A DNA stretch of 64,000 bases from assembly GCF_001466725.1 (NCBI RefSeq), contig NZ_CP013650.1:1860001-1924000 (forward strand). The letters run 5' to 3'. Shown here piece by piece: positions 50,947 through 57,849 of this stretch. The first letter of the stretch is position 1. Each line of letters begins with the position of its first letter. This stretch comes from Lacimicrobium alkaliphilum. GTDB lineage: Bacteria; Pseudomonadota; Gammaproteobacteria; Enterobacterales; Alteromonadaceae. The translations under genes and the position numbers were made by a program. The notes under the pieces were generated by a model. It did not search any database. It was not told the origin of the DNA and saw only the letters and a program-made list of their open reading frames with translations.

Positions 50947-51732
50947 ATGCCGATTCAACTGTTGCTGATCCTGGCCGTATTGTTACTTGGCGCCTGTGCC
51001 ACAACGGATAACAACCCTGTAGTAAAGAACACGCAATCAGAGCAGATGCAAAATGCAGATAATGCCCATACCAGCCGCAACGCGCTGGACTGGGCTGGCG
51101 TTTATGAAGGCGTGCTGCCCTGCGCAGATTGCGAGGGTATTCAGACCCGCCTGATGCTCTCAGCCGATGGCAATTACCAGTTGAGTGAAACCTATTTAGG
51201 CGAAGACAGCCGCGCCTTTCAGTCTAAAGGTGAATTTGAATGGCTGGATGATGGCCTGCGTATCCGCCTTTTGGGCCGGACTTCAGCTCCGGGGCTCTAT
51301 CAGGTAGGAGAAAACCAGCTGTTTCATCTCGATCAGGATGGTCAGCGCATCAGCGGTGAACTGGCCGCGCAATATCGTCTTGCTAAACAGATCGGTTCTG
51401 AGATTGTGGGGGTAAAATGGCAGCTTACAGAACTGATGGGGCAGGAGATAGCCATCAATGCACAAAAGCCCGTGTATTTTACTATCGGCGCTGATATGCA
51501 GGTAACCGGCTTTGCCGGATGTAACCGTTTTTTCGGCAAAGTAACGCTTGAGCAGGGCCAGCGGCTGGCCTTTGATAAAATGGCCTCCACCATGATGGCC
51601 TGCCCGGCATTGCAGCAGGAAGGCAAGCTGCTAAAAGCTCTGGAAATGGCCGATAATTACAGCCTGCATCAGAGAAGGCTATCTCTGAATAAAGCCCGGA
51701 TGGCCCCGCTGGCGCGATTTACGGCTCACTAA
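50947..51732 (+). CDS. NlpE N-terminal domain + META domain lipoprotein
   Basis: This 261-residue outer-membrane lipoprotein has the lipobox LLGACA (Cys about 17). Residues about 48-140 form an NlpE-like domain with the characteristic GVLPCADCEGIQTRLML, a two-cysteine motif related to that of the copper- and adhesion-linked NlpE. Residues about 150-258 form a META/HslJ domain (KWQLTELMGQEI, GFAGCNRFFG, STMMACP). An envelope-stress or metal-related role is inferred from the parts. It is the last core-like gene before the AT-rich accessory region and follows the Gln-rich gene by two bases. Confidence 0.87.
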   Translation: MPIQLLLILAVLLLGACATTDNNPVVKNTQSEQMQNADNAHTSRNALDWAGVYEGVLPCADCEGIQTRLMLSADGNYQLSETYLGEDSRAFQSKGEFEWLDDGLRIRLLGRTSAPGLYQVGENQLFHLDQDGQRISGELAAQYRLAKQIGSEIVGVKWQLTELMGQEIAINAQKPVYFTIGADMQVTGFAGCNRFFGKVTLEQGQRLAFDKMASTMMACPALQQEGKLLKALEMADNYSLHQRRLSLNKARMAPLARFTAH

Positions 51733-52096
51733 AACCACCACGCCTTGTGCTTTAACCCGGTCAGTTTCTCAAGCGTACAAGCCCGGCTCCTCGTACCCGC
51801 AGGCAGGTAAAGCTTATAAGCAAGCAGCCATCCCTCAGCGCTTTGTTTTGACATAAAGCAAAATCTAACTATATGATGCTCATAATAAAAATTTTTCTGA
51901 CACGGAATTAGTCGGGTCTTATAGTGCCGCATTCCTACTTTCCGCAGAAAACGAGACCAGTCAATCGAGTGGGCTGGAATCATAAGCTTTTGTTTACTAA
52001 AGATAATATTGACTTTTAGCTACCAAACAAGAATAAGCAGTTTTGGATCTAGTCAGAAGTCGATCTAGTACACTTTATGTTCAGCAAGGAGAAAGT
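51733..52096. other. AT-rich boundary between the NlpE-META gene and the first cassette gene
   Basis: The 364 bases mark a change from the window's usual composition to AT-rich DNA. No integrase gene, attI-like site or convincing gene was found. An 84-codon reverse-strand frame (51729-51983) has no ribosome binding site or family resemblance and I do not call it. The first cassette gene's AAGGAG site lies at the right end. Confidence 0.5.
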
Positions 52097-52498
52097 ATGG
52101 AGCCTGTAACAATCATTGCTGGTATTTCAGCATTCTTACAAGCAACTCAAACATGGATGCAATATCGAGATTCATCAAGGGCTGCTGAAGCATTTAAGCT
52201 AGAAATGTTAAATGCACCCAAAAGGCCTGAGATTCTAAGCGATGCAAAACAAGTTGCTGATATAGTTCCACCAAAAGTATTAGAAACTTTATGGCAGCGT
52301 TCTAGAAAGTGTTGGAACAATTATATTGAAATGCTCGATGAACCAGATGGCACTTACACCCCTAAAGAGTTGGATGATGCAACTTTTGCTACAAATAACT
52401 GTGTGTGTAGGGAATTGAAAAGAATAAAGGTTGTGTTAGGGGGGCGGCTTCCACCTGGTAAAATGCAAGAAGCGTGGGATGTCGCTGGTTGTTCGTGA
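52097..52498 (+). CDS. Cassette gene 1: small hypothetical protein
   Basis: This 133-residue protein does not match any family I know. It starts at ATG 52097 with a strong AAGGAG site six bases upstream; an in-frame start at 52043 lacks one. The N-terminus (MEPVTIIAGISAFLQATQ) is mildly hydrophobic and may be amphipathic. The rest is helical with four cysteines (RKCWNN, NNCVCREL, GCS) and ends VAGCS. An attC-like site begins at the stop codon, as expected of an integron cassette. AT-rich codon use differs from the flanking core genes. Confidence 0.65.
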   Translation: MEPVTIIAGISAFLQATQTWMQYRDSSRAAEAFKLEMLNAPKRPEILSDAKQVADIVPPKVLETLWQRSRKCWNNYIEMLDEPDGTYTPKELDDATFATNNCVCRELKRIKVVLGGRLPPGKMQEAWDVAGCS

Positions 52499-52574
52499 AT
52501 TTAACAAGTCAAATTCAGCCGATCACTACAGTCGCTACCGCTTCTTTCGTGCCGGCTGATTTTCGGCGTTAGGT
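52499..52574 (+). other. attC-like recombination site 1
   Basis: Begins with ATTTAAC (R'' RYYYAAC, 52499-52505) and ends with GTTAGGT (R' GTTRRRY, 52568-52574). Inner arms AAATTCAGCC and GGCTGATTTT pair imperfectly, as in attC hairpins. The length is 76 bases. It starts at the stop codon of cassette gene 1. Confidence 0.75.
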
Positions 52575-52634
52575 TTTACCAGTCCAATATGTAGCATCAT
52601 CAGTAGTTTGGGCTTCTACAAAAAAGGAGATGTT

Positions 52635-53273
52635 ATGAAATACTTAATTTTAATGTTTGTTACATTTATAAGTGTCAATGCTCTTGCAAATGAGAAAGCA
52701 GAGGCTTTAAAACATATAGCCAGCTTTGCTGATTCCATCTGTGGTAACTTGAGTCATGCTGGGGCAACTAGCAAAGTGGAATTTTCAGGTGAAGCTAAGG
52801 CTGAATTTAACAACTTACTGAAAAAGCTCGCTGATCTTGGGATATCGGGAAGTGGCAAATACAGTGCAAGTGACTTTTCTGGGGTTCCGCATGCCTCCTT
52901 GGCTGGCGCACTCTCAGACCAGAGAAAATGCAAGAGAGAAATGGCTAAACTTTTAAAAGATGATTTGCTTACGGAAAAAATTAAGTCTTGCAGGCTAAGA
53001 AGTCACGGTATTGAATATTATAAAAGTACTCAGGAATGGAGCTCAGAATCTGGCTATCAAAAGGGAGGACCTTCAAGGGCTAGTTATTGTGAAGCTAAGA
53101 GATCTGAACACGCTGCGAGCTATCCAAATAGAGTTGTTTCTTTAATTTCAGCAACCACTTCTCATAAAACTGAACGCAATCCATTTAAGCAGGACTACTA
53201 CAACCATTTTTGTTCCTACAAAGATGAATGGGATCCTATTTACAAATTAAAGGAAAATAAAAACTGTCCGTAA
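52635..53273 (+). CDS. Cassette gene 2: exported hypothetical protein
   Basis: This 212-residue protein has a clear signal peptide (MKYLILMFVTFISVNALA, cut before NEKAEA). ATG 52635 is preferred to an in-frame upstream start at 52608 because an AAAGGAGA site precedes it and the signal would then be N-terminal. The mature part is Lys/Ser-rich, with cysteines at about 38, 98, 120 and 147 and near the C-terminus (NHFCSYKDE, NKNCP), which suggests disulfides in the periplasm. I recognise no family. It is bounded by attC-like sites on both sides. Confidence 0.7.
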   Translation: MKYLILMFVTFISVNALANEKAEALKHIASFADSICGNLSHAGATSKVEFSGEAKAEFNNLLKKLADLGISGSGKYSASDFSGVPHASLAGALSDQRKCKREMAKLLKDDLLTEKIKSCRLRSHGIEYYKSTQEWSSESGYQKGGPSRASYCEAKRSEHAASYPNRVVSLISATTSHKTERNPFKQDYYNHFCSYKDEWDPIYKLKENKNCP

Positions 53274-53279
53274 AATAAA

Positions 53280-53372
53280 ATCTAACAAAAAGCTATACTC
53301 AAAAAATTGTTGGCTACGCTCTAGCCTAGCAATTATCGCCAACAATTTTTTCCAGTTAGCTTAGCGTTAGCT
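53280..53372 (+). other. attC-like recombination site 2
   Basis: R'' is ATCTAAC (53280-53286) and R' is GTTAGCT (53366-53372, one mismatch to GTTRRRY). A long imperfect palindrome joins them: AAAAAATTGTTGGC on the left pairs with GCCAACAATTTTTT on the right, and the outer AAGCTA pairs with TAGCTT. The length is 93 bases. This is the clearest hairpin of the four. Confidence 0.8.
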
Positions 53373-53412
53373 CCTTGACAGCACACAGATATCAAATTAC
53401 TAAGGAATAAAT

Positions 53413-55086
53413 GTGGCTCAAAAAACAAATGATCAGATAATTCTTAAGCAGATAATCAAGGAGCGATGTGCTGAGTCTGGCGATGAGCTGACAGTGTCGG
53501 AGTATTTCGAAATATATTCTGCATCTGAAATACTTAAGAATTATGATCTTACCTACGATGACATTTTATATGGTATAGTAGGTGATGGTGGAGACGGCGG
53601 AATTGATTCAATCTATACTTTTATTAATGGCGAGCCATTAAAAGAAGATACGCTAGTCAATACCAATCAGAAAAAGAATAACATCGAACTTATTATAATT
53701 CAATCTAAGACTTCAGCCTCTTTTAAAGAGGATGCTGTAATCAAATTCAGGGAGTCAGCTCAGGACTTATTTAACCTAGCGAACAATCCAGACGATTATT
53801 CTGCACGCTACAACACTGATTTGATTGATAAGGTTAAACTTTTTAGAAATTCATATGCAAAGTTAGCAAAGACATTTCCAAAAGTAGAAATACGATATTT
53901 TTATGCATCACAGGGTGATGAAGTTCATCATAATGTATCAGGGAAAGTTCCAAAGCTGCAAGAAGATATTGTCAAAATGTTTGGTGGCGCTGATTTTTCA
54001 TTTGAATTTATAGGTGCGTCTGAACTTCTTGAAATGACTAGAAATGTACCGTCTACTTCGAGAGTCCTCGAGGTTGCGGAATCACCGATTGGCACAACTG
54101 CCGGTAGTTATCTATGTCTTGTTACTCTGTCTAAGTACTACGAATTTATTTCTGACTCAGGGTCTTTGGCACGCAGTATATTCGAATCGAATGTTCGAGA
54201 TTATCAGGGCAGCGTTGTAGTCAATACGGGCATCCGGAAGACACTTGAAAATAGACAATCAGAAAACTTTTGGTATCTAAATAATGGCGTAACCATCATT
54301 ACCCCTAAAGCAGTAATGGCGGGAAAGCAACTTACAATTGAAGATCCTCAAATTGTTAATGGGTTGCAGACGTCACATGAAATATACCAATATTTCTCGC
54401 AGCTTGAGAATCACGAAGGTGATGAAAGAGCTGTGCTTGCAAGAGTGATCTGTGAAGAAGATGAAGAAGCTAGAGACAGAATTATACGAGCCACCAACAG
54501 TCAAACATCTATCCCGCCTGCCTCGCTAAGAAGTTCTGATGACATCCATAGAAATATTGAAGACTTTCTTAAGTCAAACGGTTACTACTACGACAGGAAG
54601 AAAAACTTTTATAAAAATCAGGGAATGCCTGTTTCTAAGATTATAAGTATCTCTTATATGGCTCAAGCTATGATGGCTATCATGCTTTTGAAACCAGATA
54701 GCGCAAGGGCTCGGCCTTCAACATTAATAAATTCTGACGTTGAATACAAAAAAATATTCAGCTTAGATAAGCCAATTGATATATATCTCAAAGCAATTCA
54801 AATAATGAAAGCTGTTGAAACACATCTGAAGCCTGAAAATAGCGAGATTCAGTTAGAAAGAAAGACAATCACGAATATTAAATTTTATGTGGCAATGGTG
54901 GCTAGTATTAAAACAGCCGGTTCTTCTCAAGATATAGAGCAAAAAATTTCGGATTTGCCAAACGTAGATTTAACTAGCGAGATACTTAATGAGTCGCTTC
55001 AACAAGTACTCGCAGAATTTGATGGGTTGGGAGCGACTGACCAAGTTGCAAAGGGGCCAGCTCTTGTAGCTAAACTGCTGAGCTAA
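53413..55086 (+). CDS. Cassette gene 3: AIPR (abortive infection phage resistance) family protein
   Basis: The 557-residue protein shows the AIPR domain (about 220-480). Key blocks are VVNTGIRKTLENRQSENFWY, LNNGVTIIT, QIVNGLQTSHEIY, RATNSQTSIPPASLRSSD and a KISIISI-like stretch followed by QAMMAIM. The N-terminal ~200 residues include a GDGGDGGIDSIY segment and LIIIQSKTSAS. The latter pair resembles a PD-(D/E)xK nuclease core (D ... Q-x-K) as seen in restriction-like AIPR proteins; this is inference. The start is GTG 53413 with a weak TAAGGAA site. The family is associated with phage defence. It lies in an integron-type cassette. Confidence 0.85.
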   Translation: MAQKTNDQIILKQIIKERCAESGDELTVSEYFEIYSASEILKNYDLTYDDILYGIVGDGGDGGIDSIYTFINGEPLKEDTLVNTNQKKNNIELIIIQSKTSASFKEDAVIKFRESAQDLFNLANNPDDYSARYNTDLIDKVKLFRNSYAKLAKTFPKVEIRYFYASQGDEVHHNVSGKVPKLQEDIVKMFGGADFSFEFIGASELLEMTRNVPSTSRVLEVAESPIGTTAGSYLCLVTLSKYYEFISDSGSLARSIFESNVRDYQGSVVVNTGIRKTLENRQSENFWYLNNGVTIITPKAVMAGKQLTIEDPQIVNGLQTSHEIYQYFSQLENHEGDERAVLARVICEEDEEARDRIIRATNSQTSIPPASLRSSDDIHRNIEDFLKSNGYYYDRKKNFYKNQGMPVSKIISISYMAQAMMAIMLLKPDSARARPSTLINSDVEYKKIFSLDKPIDIYLKAIQIMKAVETHLKPENSEIQLERKTITNIKFYVAMVASIKTAGSSQDIEQKISDLPNVDLTSEILNESLQQVLAEFDGLGATDQVAKGPALVAKLLS

Positions 55087-55130
55087 CAAGTTGCTGCGCT
55101 CCTAATTTTCCTGTGAGCAAGGCGTTAAGC
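55081..55130 (+). other. attC-like recombination site 3 (short)
   Basis: AGCTAAC (55081-55087) and GTTAAGC (55124-55130) fit R'' (one mismatch) and R' and are mutually complementary. Inner arms TTGCT and AGCAA pair. The length is only 50 bases, near the lower limit for attC. It overlaps the end of the AIPR gene. Confidence 0.65.
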
Positions 55131-55167
55131 AGCTACGGTATTGAAGAACTATGAAAAGGGGGCTAGT

Positions 55168-55881
55168 TTGAAGCAGGAAGAATTAAAAGGGGTTACAACA
55201 AAGCTAATCCTAGAAAGACCAGCAACTCAGCTTCTGAACGATTTTGGGGCAGGAAAGGCATCGCCAGGCTCTGGTAGCGCAGCTGCTCTGCTGAGCATAC
55301 TGTCGGCGAAAATGATTATCACGGTGTGCGAGATCAGCACCACAAAGCATGAATGTGAAAAGTCTCATAAGGATTTCGGATTCATCTCTGTGCAAATTAA
55401 GGAAAAAATCGAACCCAGACTAAGAGAGCTATTCGAGCTTGATGCTAAAGACTTTGAAAAGGTCGTAGAACTCAGGGTTAAGAGAGACAAGTCTCATGAT
55501 TCTGCGGAGAAGGCAAGATTTTCTAGAGACTCTCTAGATTTACTGGAAACTGCAACTGATTACACATTCGAGGTGGCTGATTTATCGTTTCTTCTTATGG
55601 AATATGGCATCACAGTATTCGAGCATGGATGGCATGCGGTCCGCGGTGATTCGGGAGTTTCAATAAGTGCCGCAATGTCAGGAATAATGTCTTCCATATT
55701 TATTATTAACCTCAACTTGAAAACTCTGACGCGAAGAAATTACGCAAGCGACAATCTAAAACGTCTTCAGTCTATCCAGAAGAAACTGGAAGAAATTCAG
55801 ATAAGAGCTTTCTCTTGCGTCACCGCGATTAGCTCTGAATCTCTTGATTCTATCCAGTTGGAGCTGCTGAAAGATGCTTAA
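55168..55881 (+). CDS. Cassette gene 4: cyclodeaminase/cyclohydrolase-fold (FTCD_C-like) protein
   Basis: This 237-residue all-helical protein resembles the formiminotransferase-cyclodeaminase C-terminal family (also methenyl-THF cyclohydrolase FchA). The signature is FGAGKASPGSGSAAALLSILSAKM near its N-terminus (about 26-49 here), where folate enzymes have PTPGGGS. The TTG at 55168 is chosen because an AAAGGGGG site lies five bases upstream; another TTG at 55141 is possible. The GGGS-to-GSGS change and the cassette setting make an ordinary folate role uncertain. An attC-like site begins at its stop. Confidence 0.72.
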   Translation: MKQEELKGVTTKLILERPATQLLNDFGAGKASPGSGSAAALLSILSAKMIITVCEISTTKHECEKSHKDFGFISVQIKEKIEPRLRELFELDAKDFEKVVELRVKRDKSHDSAEKARFSRDSLDLLETATDYTFEVADLSFLLMEYGITVFEHGWHAVRGDSGVSISAAMSGIMSSIFIINLNLKTLTRRNYASDNLKRLQSIQKKLEEIQIRAFSCVTAISSESLDSIQLELLKDA

Positions 55882-55930
55882 CAAGCGCGTCAAAGCCCAC
55901 ACTAGACTTCCCCCGCTTTAACGGACAGGC
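55876..55930 (+). other. Degenerate attC-like site 4 at the right end of the array
   Basis: R'' GCTTAAC (55876-55882) is good. Inner arms CGTCAAAGC and GCTTTAACG pair with one mismatch. The expected R' is replaced by GACAGGC (55924-55930), which differs from GTTAGGC at two positions. The site is probably decayed and marks the right edge of the cassettes. Confidence 0.55.
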
Positions 55931-56032
55931 ATCACTAACCGAAAACACGGTAAATAGTGCCTGCACAGAAAAAAGTCAGATTCGCTTGTATTCAGCATAG
56001 CTAATCTGGCTGTTTGGTCTGCGTCCGCACCT

Positions 56033-56165
56033 TTATTGCGACAGGGCTTTAGCGACTTTGGAGTTAGTGCTGCGGCCAAGTTTTGCGGTAATCTGTTCAC
56101 CAGCCTGAATCAGTTTATTCAGATCGATACCGGTTTCGATACCCATACCCATGAGCGTATCCACA
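56033..56165 (-). pseudogene. Truncated copy of the 3' end of mvaB (HMG-CoA lyase)
   Basis: On the reverse strand this encodes [18 protein letters not shown], then [21 protein letters not shown] and a stop. It parallels the C-terminus of the intact HMG-CoA lyase at 56944-57849 ([20 protein letters not shown] and onwards). By eye the DNA is roughly 80-85 percent alike, so it is diverged rather than a fresh duplicate. Similarity fades near 56165. It lies in the same orientation as mvaB, with the toxin-antitoxin pair between them. No start codon or upstream gene body is present. Confidence 0.8.
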
Positions 56166-56247: not shown

Positions 56248-56613
56248 ATGCGCATATATAAGTCAAAGTGGTTCACGAAGTGGGCCGGGAAAGAGGGGCT
56301 GACGGATAGCGCCCTCAAGGAAGCCGTCGGGGAAATGGAAAAAGGCTTAATCGATGCTGATCTGGGTGGCCATGTTTATAAAAAGCGAGCGTCCATTGAG
56401 GGGCAAGGAAAAAGCAGCGGTCTGAGGACCATCCTGGCGTTTAAGGTGGGTAACAAAGCCTTCTTTATGTACGGCTTCCCTAAGAACGCGCGGGATAACA
56501 TAAACGGCAAAGAGTTGAAGGCATTTAAACGATTGGCAAAGGAGCTGTTGGGTTACAGTGAGGTCCAACTGAAAAACGCCGTTGAAACGGGCAGTATGGT
56601 AGAGGTGAAGTGA
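56248..56613 (+). CDS. RelE/HigB-type toxin of a type II toxin-antitoxin system
   Basis: The 121-residue basic protein fits the RelE-like toxin family usually paired with Xre antitoxins (PF06296-like). It has MRIYKSKWFTKWAGKEGL, then GGHVYKKR, SGLRTILAFKVGNKAFFMYGFPKNARDN and LKAFKRLAKELLGY. Toxins of this family cleave mRNA on the ribosome. AAGGGAA lies just upstream of the ATG. The toxin precedes the antitoxin, as in higBA. It sits between a broken and an intact mvaB 3' end. Confidence 0.87.
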   Translation: MRIYKSKWFTKWAGKEGLTDSALKEAVGEMEKGLIDADLGGHVYKKRASIEGQGKSSGLRTILAFKVGNKAFFMYGFPKNARDNINGKELKAFKRLAKELLGYSEVQLKNAVETGSMVEVK

Positions 56614-56614
56614 G

Positions 56615-56920
56615 ATGAAAGACAGTATCTTAGATGTCATACATGACACAGCGAAAGACTTAAACGAGGCTGGCGTGATGGATGTGCAAACCATGCGCGA
56701 GTTCGATGCCTTATGCCTGCCTGAAGTTGAGAATTATGATGCCCACCGCATTAAAGCCATCCGCAAAAAGGCGCATGTGAGTCAGGCGGTGTTCGCCGCT
56801 TACCTCAACACTACACCATCAACAGTAAGGCAGTGGGAACAAGGCAGTAAAAAGCCGCGGGGTACCTCCCTCAAATTACTTAATCTGGTAGCCAATAAAG
56901 GCTTAGAGATCCTGGCATAA
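56615..56920 (+). CDS. Xre/HigA-type antitoxin
   Basis: The 101-residue partner has a helical N-terminal part (about 1-40) and a C-terminal HTH_3 domain (about 45-98). The domain has the pattern IRKKAHVSQAVFAAYLNTTPSTVRQWEQG and SLKLLNLVANKG, typical of HigA/NadS antitoxins. The start codon is one base after the toxin stop, so the two are cotranslated. It should neutralise the toxin and repress the operon through the upstream palindrome. Confidence 0.88.
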   Translation: MKDSILDVIHDTAKDLNEAGVMDVQTMREFDALCLPEVENYDAHRIKAIRKKAHVSQAVFAAYLNTTPSTVRQWEQGSKKPRGTSLKLLNLVANKGLEILA

Positions 56921-56943: not shown

Positions 56944-57849
56944 TCATTGCGACAAAGCCCTTGCCACTTTTGAATTAGTGCTGCGGCCAAGCCTGGCGGT
57001 AATCTGTTCACCAGCGTGGATTAGCTTATCCAGATCGATACCGGTTTCTATGCCCATGCCGTGTAGCATATACACCACATCTTCTGTGGCTACGTTGCCC
57101 GACGCCCCTTTGGCATAAGGGCAGCCACCGAGCCCAGCCACGGCGCTGTCGATGACATTGATACCCTGTTGCAGGGCAATCAGGATATTGGCCAGTGCCT
57201 GGCCATAGGTATCGTGAAAATGTACCGCCAACTTCGCTTTGGGCACCACCTTGCATACGATATCTAGCATACTGGCGGTTTTTAGCGGGGTGCCGACGCC
57301 TATGGTATCGCCCAATGAAATTTCATAGCAGCCCATTTGCAGTAGCCTGTCTGACACCTCCGCCACCTTTTCAGCGCTGATGTCTCCTTCATAGGGGCAG
57401 CCCAGCACACAGGATACATAGCCACGCACTTTAATCTTGTTGGCCCCGGCGGTTGCCATCACCGGTGCGAAACGCTCCAGGCTTTCACTGATGCTGCAGT
57501 TGATGTTTTTTTGGGTGAAGCTCTCTGAGGCCGCACCAAAAATCGCCATCTCATCGGCCCCTGCCGCCAGCGCCGCTTCAAAGCCTTTCAGGTTGGGCGT
57601 CAGTGCTGAGTAAGTAACACCGGGTTTGCGCTTAATAGCCGCAAAAACCTCACCGCTGTCAGCCATTTGCGGTACCCATTTGGGCGACACAAAACTGCCC
57701 GTTTCCACCATATTCAGGCCGGCATCGGCGAGGTTTTCCACCAGTGCCACCTTGTCGGCAAGGGCTATCTGGCCCTTTTCATTCTGCAGCCCGTCACGGG
57801 GACCCACTTCCACGATTTTTACTTCTTTGGGATACATACTATTGCTCAA
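56944..57849 (-). CDS. mvaB: Hydroxymethylglutaryl-CoA lyase
   Basis: This is the last step of leucine breakdown (LiuE), cleaving HMG-CoA to acetyl-CoA and acetoacetate. The 301-residue TIM-barrel enzyme has [14 protein letters not shown] (about residues 11-24), metal-ligand blocks [11 protein letters not shown] and [13 protein letters not shown], and the catalytic cysteine in [14 protein letters not shown]. The stop is 23 bases from the antitoxin gene. It reads in the same direction as liuDCBA but is separated from liuD by a repeat block, so it may be transcribed with them by read-through. Confidence 0.96.

Follow-up and report, generated by a model that had tools for sequence, protein, structure and literature searches.

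Cassette array in the window

The DNA analysed here (the window) is a 64-kb stretch of the genome of Lacimicrobium alkaliphilum (G000:C1:1860001-1924000), which consists of one contig of 4,378,835 bp. Within it, between a gene for an NlpE-META lipoprotein-like protein and mvaB, lies a block of four integron cassettes, the last of which ends in an attC site that is cut by the remnant of an IS3-family insertion sequence (IS) (Table 1). The open reading frames (ORFs) of the four cassettes are all on the + strand and show G+C contents of 41.0, 38.7, 37.8, and 42.8%, respectively, compared to 50.3% for the whole window, in agreement with an earlier note on this DNA that had described four AT-rich genes on the same strand.

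TABLE 1 Features of the cassette block and its surroundings (positions are those of the window)
Feature	Position	Strand	Remarks
NlpE-META lipoprotein-like gene	50947..51732	+	Left core neighbour; Pfam PF04170, PF03724; adjoins mvaB in G001
Leader common to the G002 locus	51847..52079	+	87% identity over 227 nt; ends at G^TT cassette junction
Promoter-like site TTGACA-18-TATGAT	51848..51877	+	11/12 matches; leader motif scan
Promoter-like site CTGACA-17-TATAGT	51897..51925	+	10/12 matches; leader motif scan
Cassette 1	52080..52568	+	133-aa ORF 52097-52498; no Pfam or PADLOC family
attC 1	52499..52574	+	ATTTAAC ... GTTAGGT; covariance model 34.1 bits, E 9.5e-6
Cassette 2	52569..53366	+	212-aa ORF 52635-53273; no Pfam or PADLOC family
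attC 2	53280..53372	+	ATCTAAC ... GTTAGCT; 31.4 bits, E 4.1e-5; coincides with inverted repeat I1
Cassette 3	53367..55124	+	ORF 53413-55086; 557-aa AIPR-family, AbiU-like protein
attC 3 (short)	55081..55130	+	AGCTAAC ... GTTAAGC; 22.1 bits, E 0.0065 (model span 55082-55130)
Cassette 4	55125..55902	+	246-aa FTCD_C (cyclodeaminase)-like ORF 55141-55881, Pfam PF04961, 1.5e-22; ends in half attC
Left half of attC 4	55876..55902	+	R'' GCTTAAC (55876-55882) plus arm; cut 24 nt after first base of TAAC
IS3-family remnant	55903..55972	+	Left terminus TAGACTTCCCCCGCTTTAACGGACA plus start of orfA; ~70 nt kept
mvaB 3'-end partial copy	56035..56164	-	81% identity over 130 nt to 56946-57075
RelE-family gene	56248..56613	+	PF06296; beside the array
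Helix-turn-helix (HTH) gene	56615..56920	+	Probable partner of the RelE-family gene; Pfam scan
mvaB	56944..57849	-	Right core neighbour; ORF named by the earlier reader; 86-89% identity to two congeners

The same note had proposed an attC-like site behind each gene, to be checked by a covariance search. A model for which ten attC sites from this genome's resident integron, located 1.83 Mb from the block, served as the training set was run with default filters and found three attC sites in the window, behind ORFs 1 to 3, with no other match up to an E value of 10; thus, site 4 yielded no match. Since a model built from the genome's own integron sites detects these three sites and nothing else, the cassette array is real. 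The R'' and R' boxes assigned in the note were right for sites 1 to 3, although GTTAGCT of site 2 departs from the strict GTTRRRY consensus, whereas the GACAGGC proposed for site 4 is no R' box, and that site is split by the IS end.

A separate attC score, trained on 11 resident sites of which one (at 52829) is doubtful, was applied to both strands of the window. The sites at 55081-55130, 53280-53372, and 52499-52574 took the first three ranks (43.0, 37.2, and 37.0, respectively), followed by a candidate at 27.6; ten Markov shuffles peaked at 35.4, which leaves a modest margin for two of the sites. Two points count against the array: attC 3 scores low with the covariance model, and the inner arm of attC 2 pairs poorly. 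Simple patterns were of little use. Of the four sites, a first scan with strict boxes caught only site 1 on the + strand; it also picked up the reverse strand of that site and a single weak candidate on the minus strand. The pattern RYYYAAC N20-50 GTTRRRY, which is self-complementary and too short for these sites, occurred 52 times on each strand genome-wide versus 126 times on each strand in the reversed control.

Cassette arrays with no intI nearby are known in IntegronFinder as CALINs (clusters of attC sites lacking integrases). The block resembles one in carrying single-gene cassettes with attC sites (at least two, and three by model matches) on one strand, each behind a single ORF, and no integrase gene beside them. 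The search for an integrase elsewhere, also proposed in the earlier note, did find one. The only ORF of the genome above the TIGR02249 cut-off (454.9 bits; cut-off, 265) was an intI at G000:C1:84271-85218, 1.83 Mb off. Hence, the description of the block as integrase-less holds locally but not genome-wide, since the genome possesses an intact intI beside a cassette array. That resident array lies to the left of intI on the opposite strand, and the covariance model adds three sites there to its ten training sites. Unlike a plain CALIN, the block thus coexists with a resident intI, is capped by an IS, and occupies a platform that is reused with other cassettes in a congener (see below).

At about 77 to 78 kb of G000:C1 (L010, 12900-14500), a long sequence resembling an IS110-type transposase was observed by eye directly after a resident attC.

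Site 4 is cut by an IS3-family end

Site 4 retains a good R'' box and its arm, after which the sequence passes into the left end of an IS3-family element. The remnant shows 83% identity over 72 nt (E 6.4e-16) to a copy in the congener G001 (L100/L103), and 77% over 74 nt to L096, a locus of genome G079 in which CTAGACTTCCCCCGCTTTAACGGACA forms the left end of an IS3-family element endowed with orfA, orfB, and a matching right end. Allowing up to three mismatches, CTAGACTTCCCCCGCTTTAACGGACA was found at seven places in 5 of 246 family genomes, and an attC-like left arm preceded the IS end at all seven, the arm of G086 being a poor one (TATAAGA, not TAACAA). The exact 21-mer of CTAGACTTCCCCCGCTTTAACGGACA occurred in two genome-collection records, both from Lacimicrobium, in a collection where the records of the window's own genome were possibly excluded. 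The IS copies of Lacimicrobium begin with TA, not TG.

The earlier note had considered the rightmost site decayed, which would make the block a plain CALIN that lost this attC by point mutation, with no IS involved. This is very improbable. It would fit the good R'' box with no R' after it and the missing covariance-model match, but the sequence from 55903 onward matches complete or partial IS3-family ends elsewhere (E 6e-16 to the G001 copy), and the break falls exactly at the 23-24-nt position used by 25 of 28 copies of the group described in the next section. Site 4 is the left half of an attC that an IS3-family element interrupts with its left end, not the product of point mutations.

An IS3 group with a preferred position in attC

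A search of 394 genomes of the order with orfA of L096 as the query yielded 36 matches and loci for 30 of these, and a recognisable left inverted repeat (IRL) was present in 28 of the 30. In 25 of these 28 copies, TAAC(A/C) was located 28 to 29 nt before the IRL core, which corresponds to 23 to 24 nt before the IS terminus. TAAC is invariant among the 25 by selection; the A at position 9 is invariant as well, and a T occupies position 15 in 23 of them. Extension to the class (369 genomes) rendered 32 matches in 19 genomes, including four in the genome of the window. Taken together, 33 of the 59 loci (24 of 29 from the order and 9 of 30 from the class) carried TAAC(A/C)A at the expected offset, compared to 0.7% of control windows further upstream, a comparison that is not an independent test because the offset window was chosen after these loci had been seen.

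Of the 23 copies with both ends, 13 are followed on the right by GCGTTA within 110 nt, versus 6 of 94 control windows. With the resident-attC model, 30 matches were obtained near IS copies; they fall in 20 of the 48 loci searched and are without exception on the same strand as the IS, and the four control (outgroup) loci gave none. Only one of the 23 (L139) showed TAAC(A/C)A in reverse orientation at a similar distance from its right end. The comparison of copies shows that attC is the main target of the group, which enters the R''-L'' arm at about 24 nt and with its left end towards R''.

For the analysis of IS boundaries, 31 loci were used, 23 of which had both ends, with right ends placed on CA by rule. 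All 23 copies begin with TG, and the TG...CA ends and imperfect inverted repeats are those of the IS3 family. A target duplication of 3 to 4 nt accompanied 10 of the 23, compared to 24 of 506 mismatched pairs of ends, and these duplications argue for genuine transposition as the origin of the copies. The coding capacity is in accordance with a two-ORF IS3 element: orfA of L096 matches Pfam HTH_Tnp_1 (NCBIfam transpos_IS3 under its cut-off), and orfB of L117 and L120 matches Pfam rve and, above the cut-off, NCBIfam transpos_IS3. An orfB protein search returned at least 5,000 records of general IS3 transposases, the best at 51% identity among the matches listed. On plasmids, a near search for relatives of the IS recovered only the copy itself and a distant one recovered three records; none was found in phages. 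An OrfA tree was discarded as proof, being poorly resolved: the attC label needs 10 changes over 39 rows, and a looser labelling window mislabels rows, L119 and L137 among them.

Several observations count against such a preference. Two order-level loci (L114 and L138) lack a recognisable IRL, and in three others (L119, L123, and L136) the IRL is not preceded by TAAC at the expected spot. At the class level, 20 of the 30 loci deviate from the expected offset, of which some adjoin attC-like arms at other offsets and some are outside attC, and none of the four copies of the related IS in the window's genome is at the expected attC spot. Target duplications are absent in 13 of the 23 copies with both ends, and L139 carries the TAAC motif on both sides, the forward one included. 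In a crude test, the left and right arms of one copy paired no better than arms from different copies (mean, -10.3 versus -10.0 kcal/mol; P = 0.31; n = 13). Finally, a partial copy on a Salinivibrio plasmid (L175) lies outside attC.

Alternatively, the IS might have no preference for attC, its copies being seen there because integron arrays tolerate insertions. IS3-family and other IS elements do occur in arrays, according to passages of PMC11089894 and PMC11023631. An intI was present in 28 of the 34 genomes with IS copies or relatives (27 above the cut-off), as tolerance would lead one to expect, and also in 31 of 40 relatives at large, so that the share of intI alone proves little. Tolerance is nonetheless scarcely credible, given that the position is fixed within 1 nt in 25 of 28 copies, whereas cassettes span hundreds of bases, and that the related IS of the window's genome is not at this spot.

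Three side observations concern these loci. The class-level loci L154, L156, L157, and L161 represent another, more distantly related IS3-type group, whose ends resemble TGAWCTAGCACCACTTT, and likewise stand beside attC-like arms, at other offsets. In genome G048, L124 and L135, 3.3 kb apart, have near-identical right attC halves and different left halves. At L096, part of a 263-aa ORF to the left of the IS is repeated to its right, as judged by eye, which suggests a rearrangement through the IS.

The locus in related genomes

The comparison with relatives that the earlier note had called for was made with two congeners, G001 and G002, and a more distant relative, G007. In G001, the stretches that match NlpE-META and mvaB lie only 16 bp apart, i.e., the spot is empty, and both genes are likewise adjacent in G007. 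In G002, by contrast, the gap at this locus measures 2.7 kb; it contains different genes and a separate attC (E 6.6e-10), but the leader and, before mvaB, the IS stump and tail are shared with G000. The presence of attC-bearing genes at a spot that is empty in one congener and otherwise filled in the other supports the earlier proposal that the block was captured as cassettes.

The leader shared by G000 and G002 includes a run of 68 identical nt (51893-51960), although the flanking genes of both genomes are only about 80% identical, and its similarity ends in both at G^TT, the point where cassettes join. Among 295 family genomes, it had a strong match only in G000 and G002; 11 others showed matches of 22 to 54 nt (E 0.003 to 0.009), and a search against plasmids and phages yielded none. 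The cassettes may be read from promoters in the leader; the two promoter-like sites are suggestive only, since the region holds five such sites compared to a shuffle mean of 9.9, a number not above chance. Other identities for the leader were discarded. Compared as an attI with the region upstream of the resident intI, it scored 12.5 (shuffles: mean, 11.1; maximum, 18.5); leader and tail, taken as the two inverted repeats of a transposon, scored 9.5 (mean, 9.1; maximum, 13.5); one of eight comparisons with another IS3 end gave P = 0.003, which is unconvincing; and no match to an rRNA promoter was found upstream of the four 16S genes.

G000 and G002 share both the stump and its join to the mvaB side, and a run of 29 identical nt lies where the tail begins, yet their last cassettes differ and end in different attC halves. 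The shared leader, stump, and join therefore predate the split of the two genomes, and the different attC halves to the left of the stump imply that the last cassette was changed after it. Two other accounts must be weighed here. The stump might not be shared at all, G000 and G002 having acquired their IS and suffered their deletions independently at this locus. The differing attC halves would be expected then, and repeated insertions are plausible for an IS group that targets attC; however, the stump-mvaB join aligns in both species, so that the same deletion would be needed twice, and we consider this account unlikely. Alternatively, leader, cassettes, and tail might have moved between species as a unit, in an island or transposon, instead of being assembled by IntI in trans. 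The identical runs in the leader core and the tail start, closer than the flanking genes, would fit such a transfer. It is nevertheless quite unlikely, as the genes between leader and tail differ, the leader has no plasmid or phage match and only short matches in other family genomes, and its similarity stops at the G^TT junction in both genomes.

Proposed history of the block

We hold with good confidence that the block is a secondary cassette platform, the last attC of which was hit by an attC-targeting IS3 element that has since been mostly deleted. In an ancestor of G000 and G002, cassettes would have been inserted by recombination at a G^TT that follows a short leader in the interval from NlpE-META to mvaB. 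The sites, the shared leader and tail, and the empty congener are observed; the agent of insertion was presumably the IntI of the resident integron, 1.83 Mb away, working in trans. An IS3-family element then hit the last attC, and the subsequent loss of most of this IS left only 70 nt of its left end, which now adjoin the mvaB side. Loss of the R' side should stop IntI from excising the last cassette. Because IntI cannot easily swap that cassette once R' is lost, the change after the split most likely came about by recombination through IS ends: the last cassettes were probably exchanged by homologous recombination between IS copies, independently of the integrase. It counts against this history that both the recombination step and the action of IntI in trans are inferred from sequence.

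There is a precedent for such recombination. Passages of PMC11023631 describe a Vibrio cholerae array that is experimentally re-inverted by recombination between two IS3 copies. The unmatched arm pairing and the missing target duplications reported above may be signs of recombination between copies. With somewhat less confidence, we favour a broader reading, in which a branch of IS3 elements across the Gammaproteobacteria would be specialised on attC, at one position and in one orientation, with copies that serve as homology portals, capping arrays and swapping cassettes without IntI; the exchange of the last cassette in Lacimicrobium would be one product of it.

Cassette contents and neighbouring genes

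The product of cassette 3 matched the PADLOC AbiU model PDLC02357 over its whole length (678 bits; E 3.4e-204; residues 6-555; model positions 1-530 of 537). It also matched Pfam AIPR (1.6e-41), and its only NCBIfam match, to MzaE, was weak and far under the cut-off. This cassette is therefore probably an AbiU-type phage-defence gene, and chromosomal integrons are known to carry phage-defence cassettes. A protein search with cassette 1 returned itself and one relative (74%). The product of cassette 2, whose N terminus resembles a signal peptide by eye, had five close matches of 67 to 100% identity including itself (the others, 67 to 90%), one of them from Vibrio parahaemolyticus, plus two distant ones. 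The source names of the relatives of cassette 4, among the best 120 of 213, include Teredinibacter, Shewanella, Pseudomonas, Vibrio, and Tenacibaculum; a patchy spread across taxa is usual for cassettes.

The block was said to sit between NlpE-META and mvaB, and it does lie within that interval, but mvaB is not the next feature, as a 130-nt copy of its 3' end and a RelE/HTH gene pair intervene. The copy is to the left of the pair, and the pair itself abuts the full mvaB; the pair looks as if it had arrived bringing its own mvaB 3' end. The copy aligns with the end of G002 mvaB within a stretch of 85% identity. The pair was not found in any locus fetched from other genomes, no attC was detected at the RelE-family gene by the resident-site covariance model, and an Rfam scan of the window gave no matches.

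Comparison with known systems and implications

The usual picture of integrons attributes their shuffling to IntI alone. The IS1111-attC group of the IS110 family, for which Tetu and Holmes (2008) and Post and Hall (2009) are cited, targets attC according to passages of PMC11187229, PMC12444791, PMC11089894, and PMC11616780. The element described here shares that target but does not belong to the group: it has no IS110/IS1111-type DEDD transposase and is of the IS3 type, with orfA and orfB, an rve/DDE domain, TG...CA ends, and 3-4-nt duplications, and it sits 23 to 24 nt after the TAAC of R''. Within the IS3 family, IS1397, ISKpn1, and ISPsy8 are, in the passages of PMC1525189, specific for palindromic repetitive extragenic palindrome (REP)/palindromic unit (PU) sequences; they resemble our element in family and in palindrome specificity and differ in the target, which here is attC. 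Group IIC-attC introns (passages of PMC7923331) are likewise attC specialists, but they are retroelements and not DDE transposons.

A known 1261-bp IS3-family element, likened by description and not by sequence, also lacks a target duplication, and homologous recombination between its copies rearranges an array. In that case, however, the copies are inverted, their recombination inverts the array, one copy is within a cassette coding sequence and the other in the last cassette, and the source passages do not mention attC targeting. In PMC11089894, 23% of the transposases of phyllosphere cassettes were of the IS3 type, but its passages name only the IS1111 group as attC targeting; the phrase "attC site" is absent from the main text of PMC9345347. 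No report of attC-targeting IS3 elements was found in the literature searched, outside of which lay ISfinder and subscription journals, so an earlier description is possible; in the passages found, the habit of inserting at one spot of attC is described for unrelated mobile elements only.

If true, IS1111 elements and group IIC introns would be joined by another, independent specialist of this target, a transposon group whose recognition of attC is precise to one base. Its insertion into attC could explain some of the end sites regarded as decayed, and its copies would offer a RecA-type, IntI-independent route for cassette exchange. In Lacimicrobium, the locus represents a second cassette platform far from the integrase, carrying a probable phage-defence cassette.

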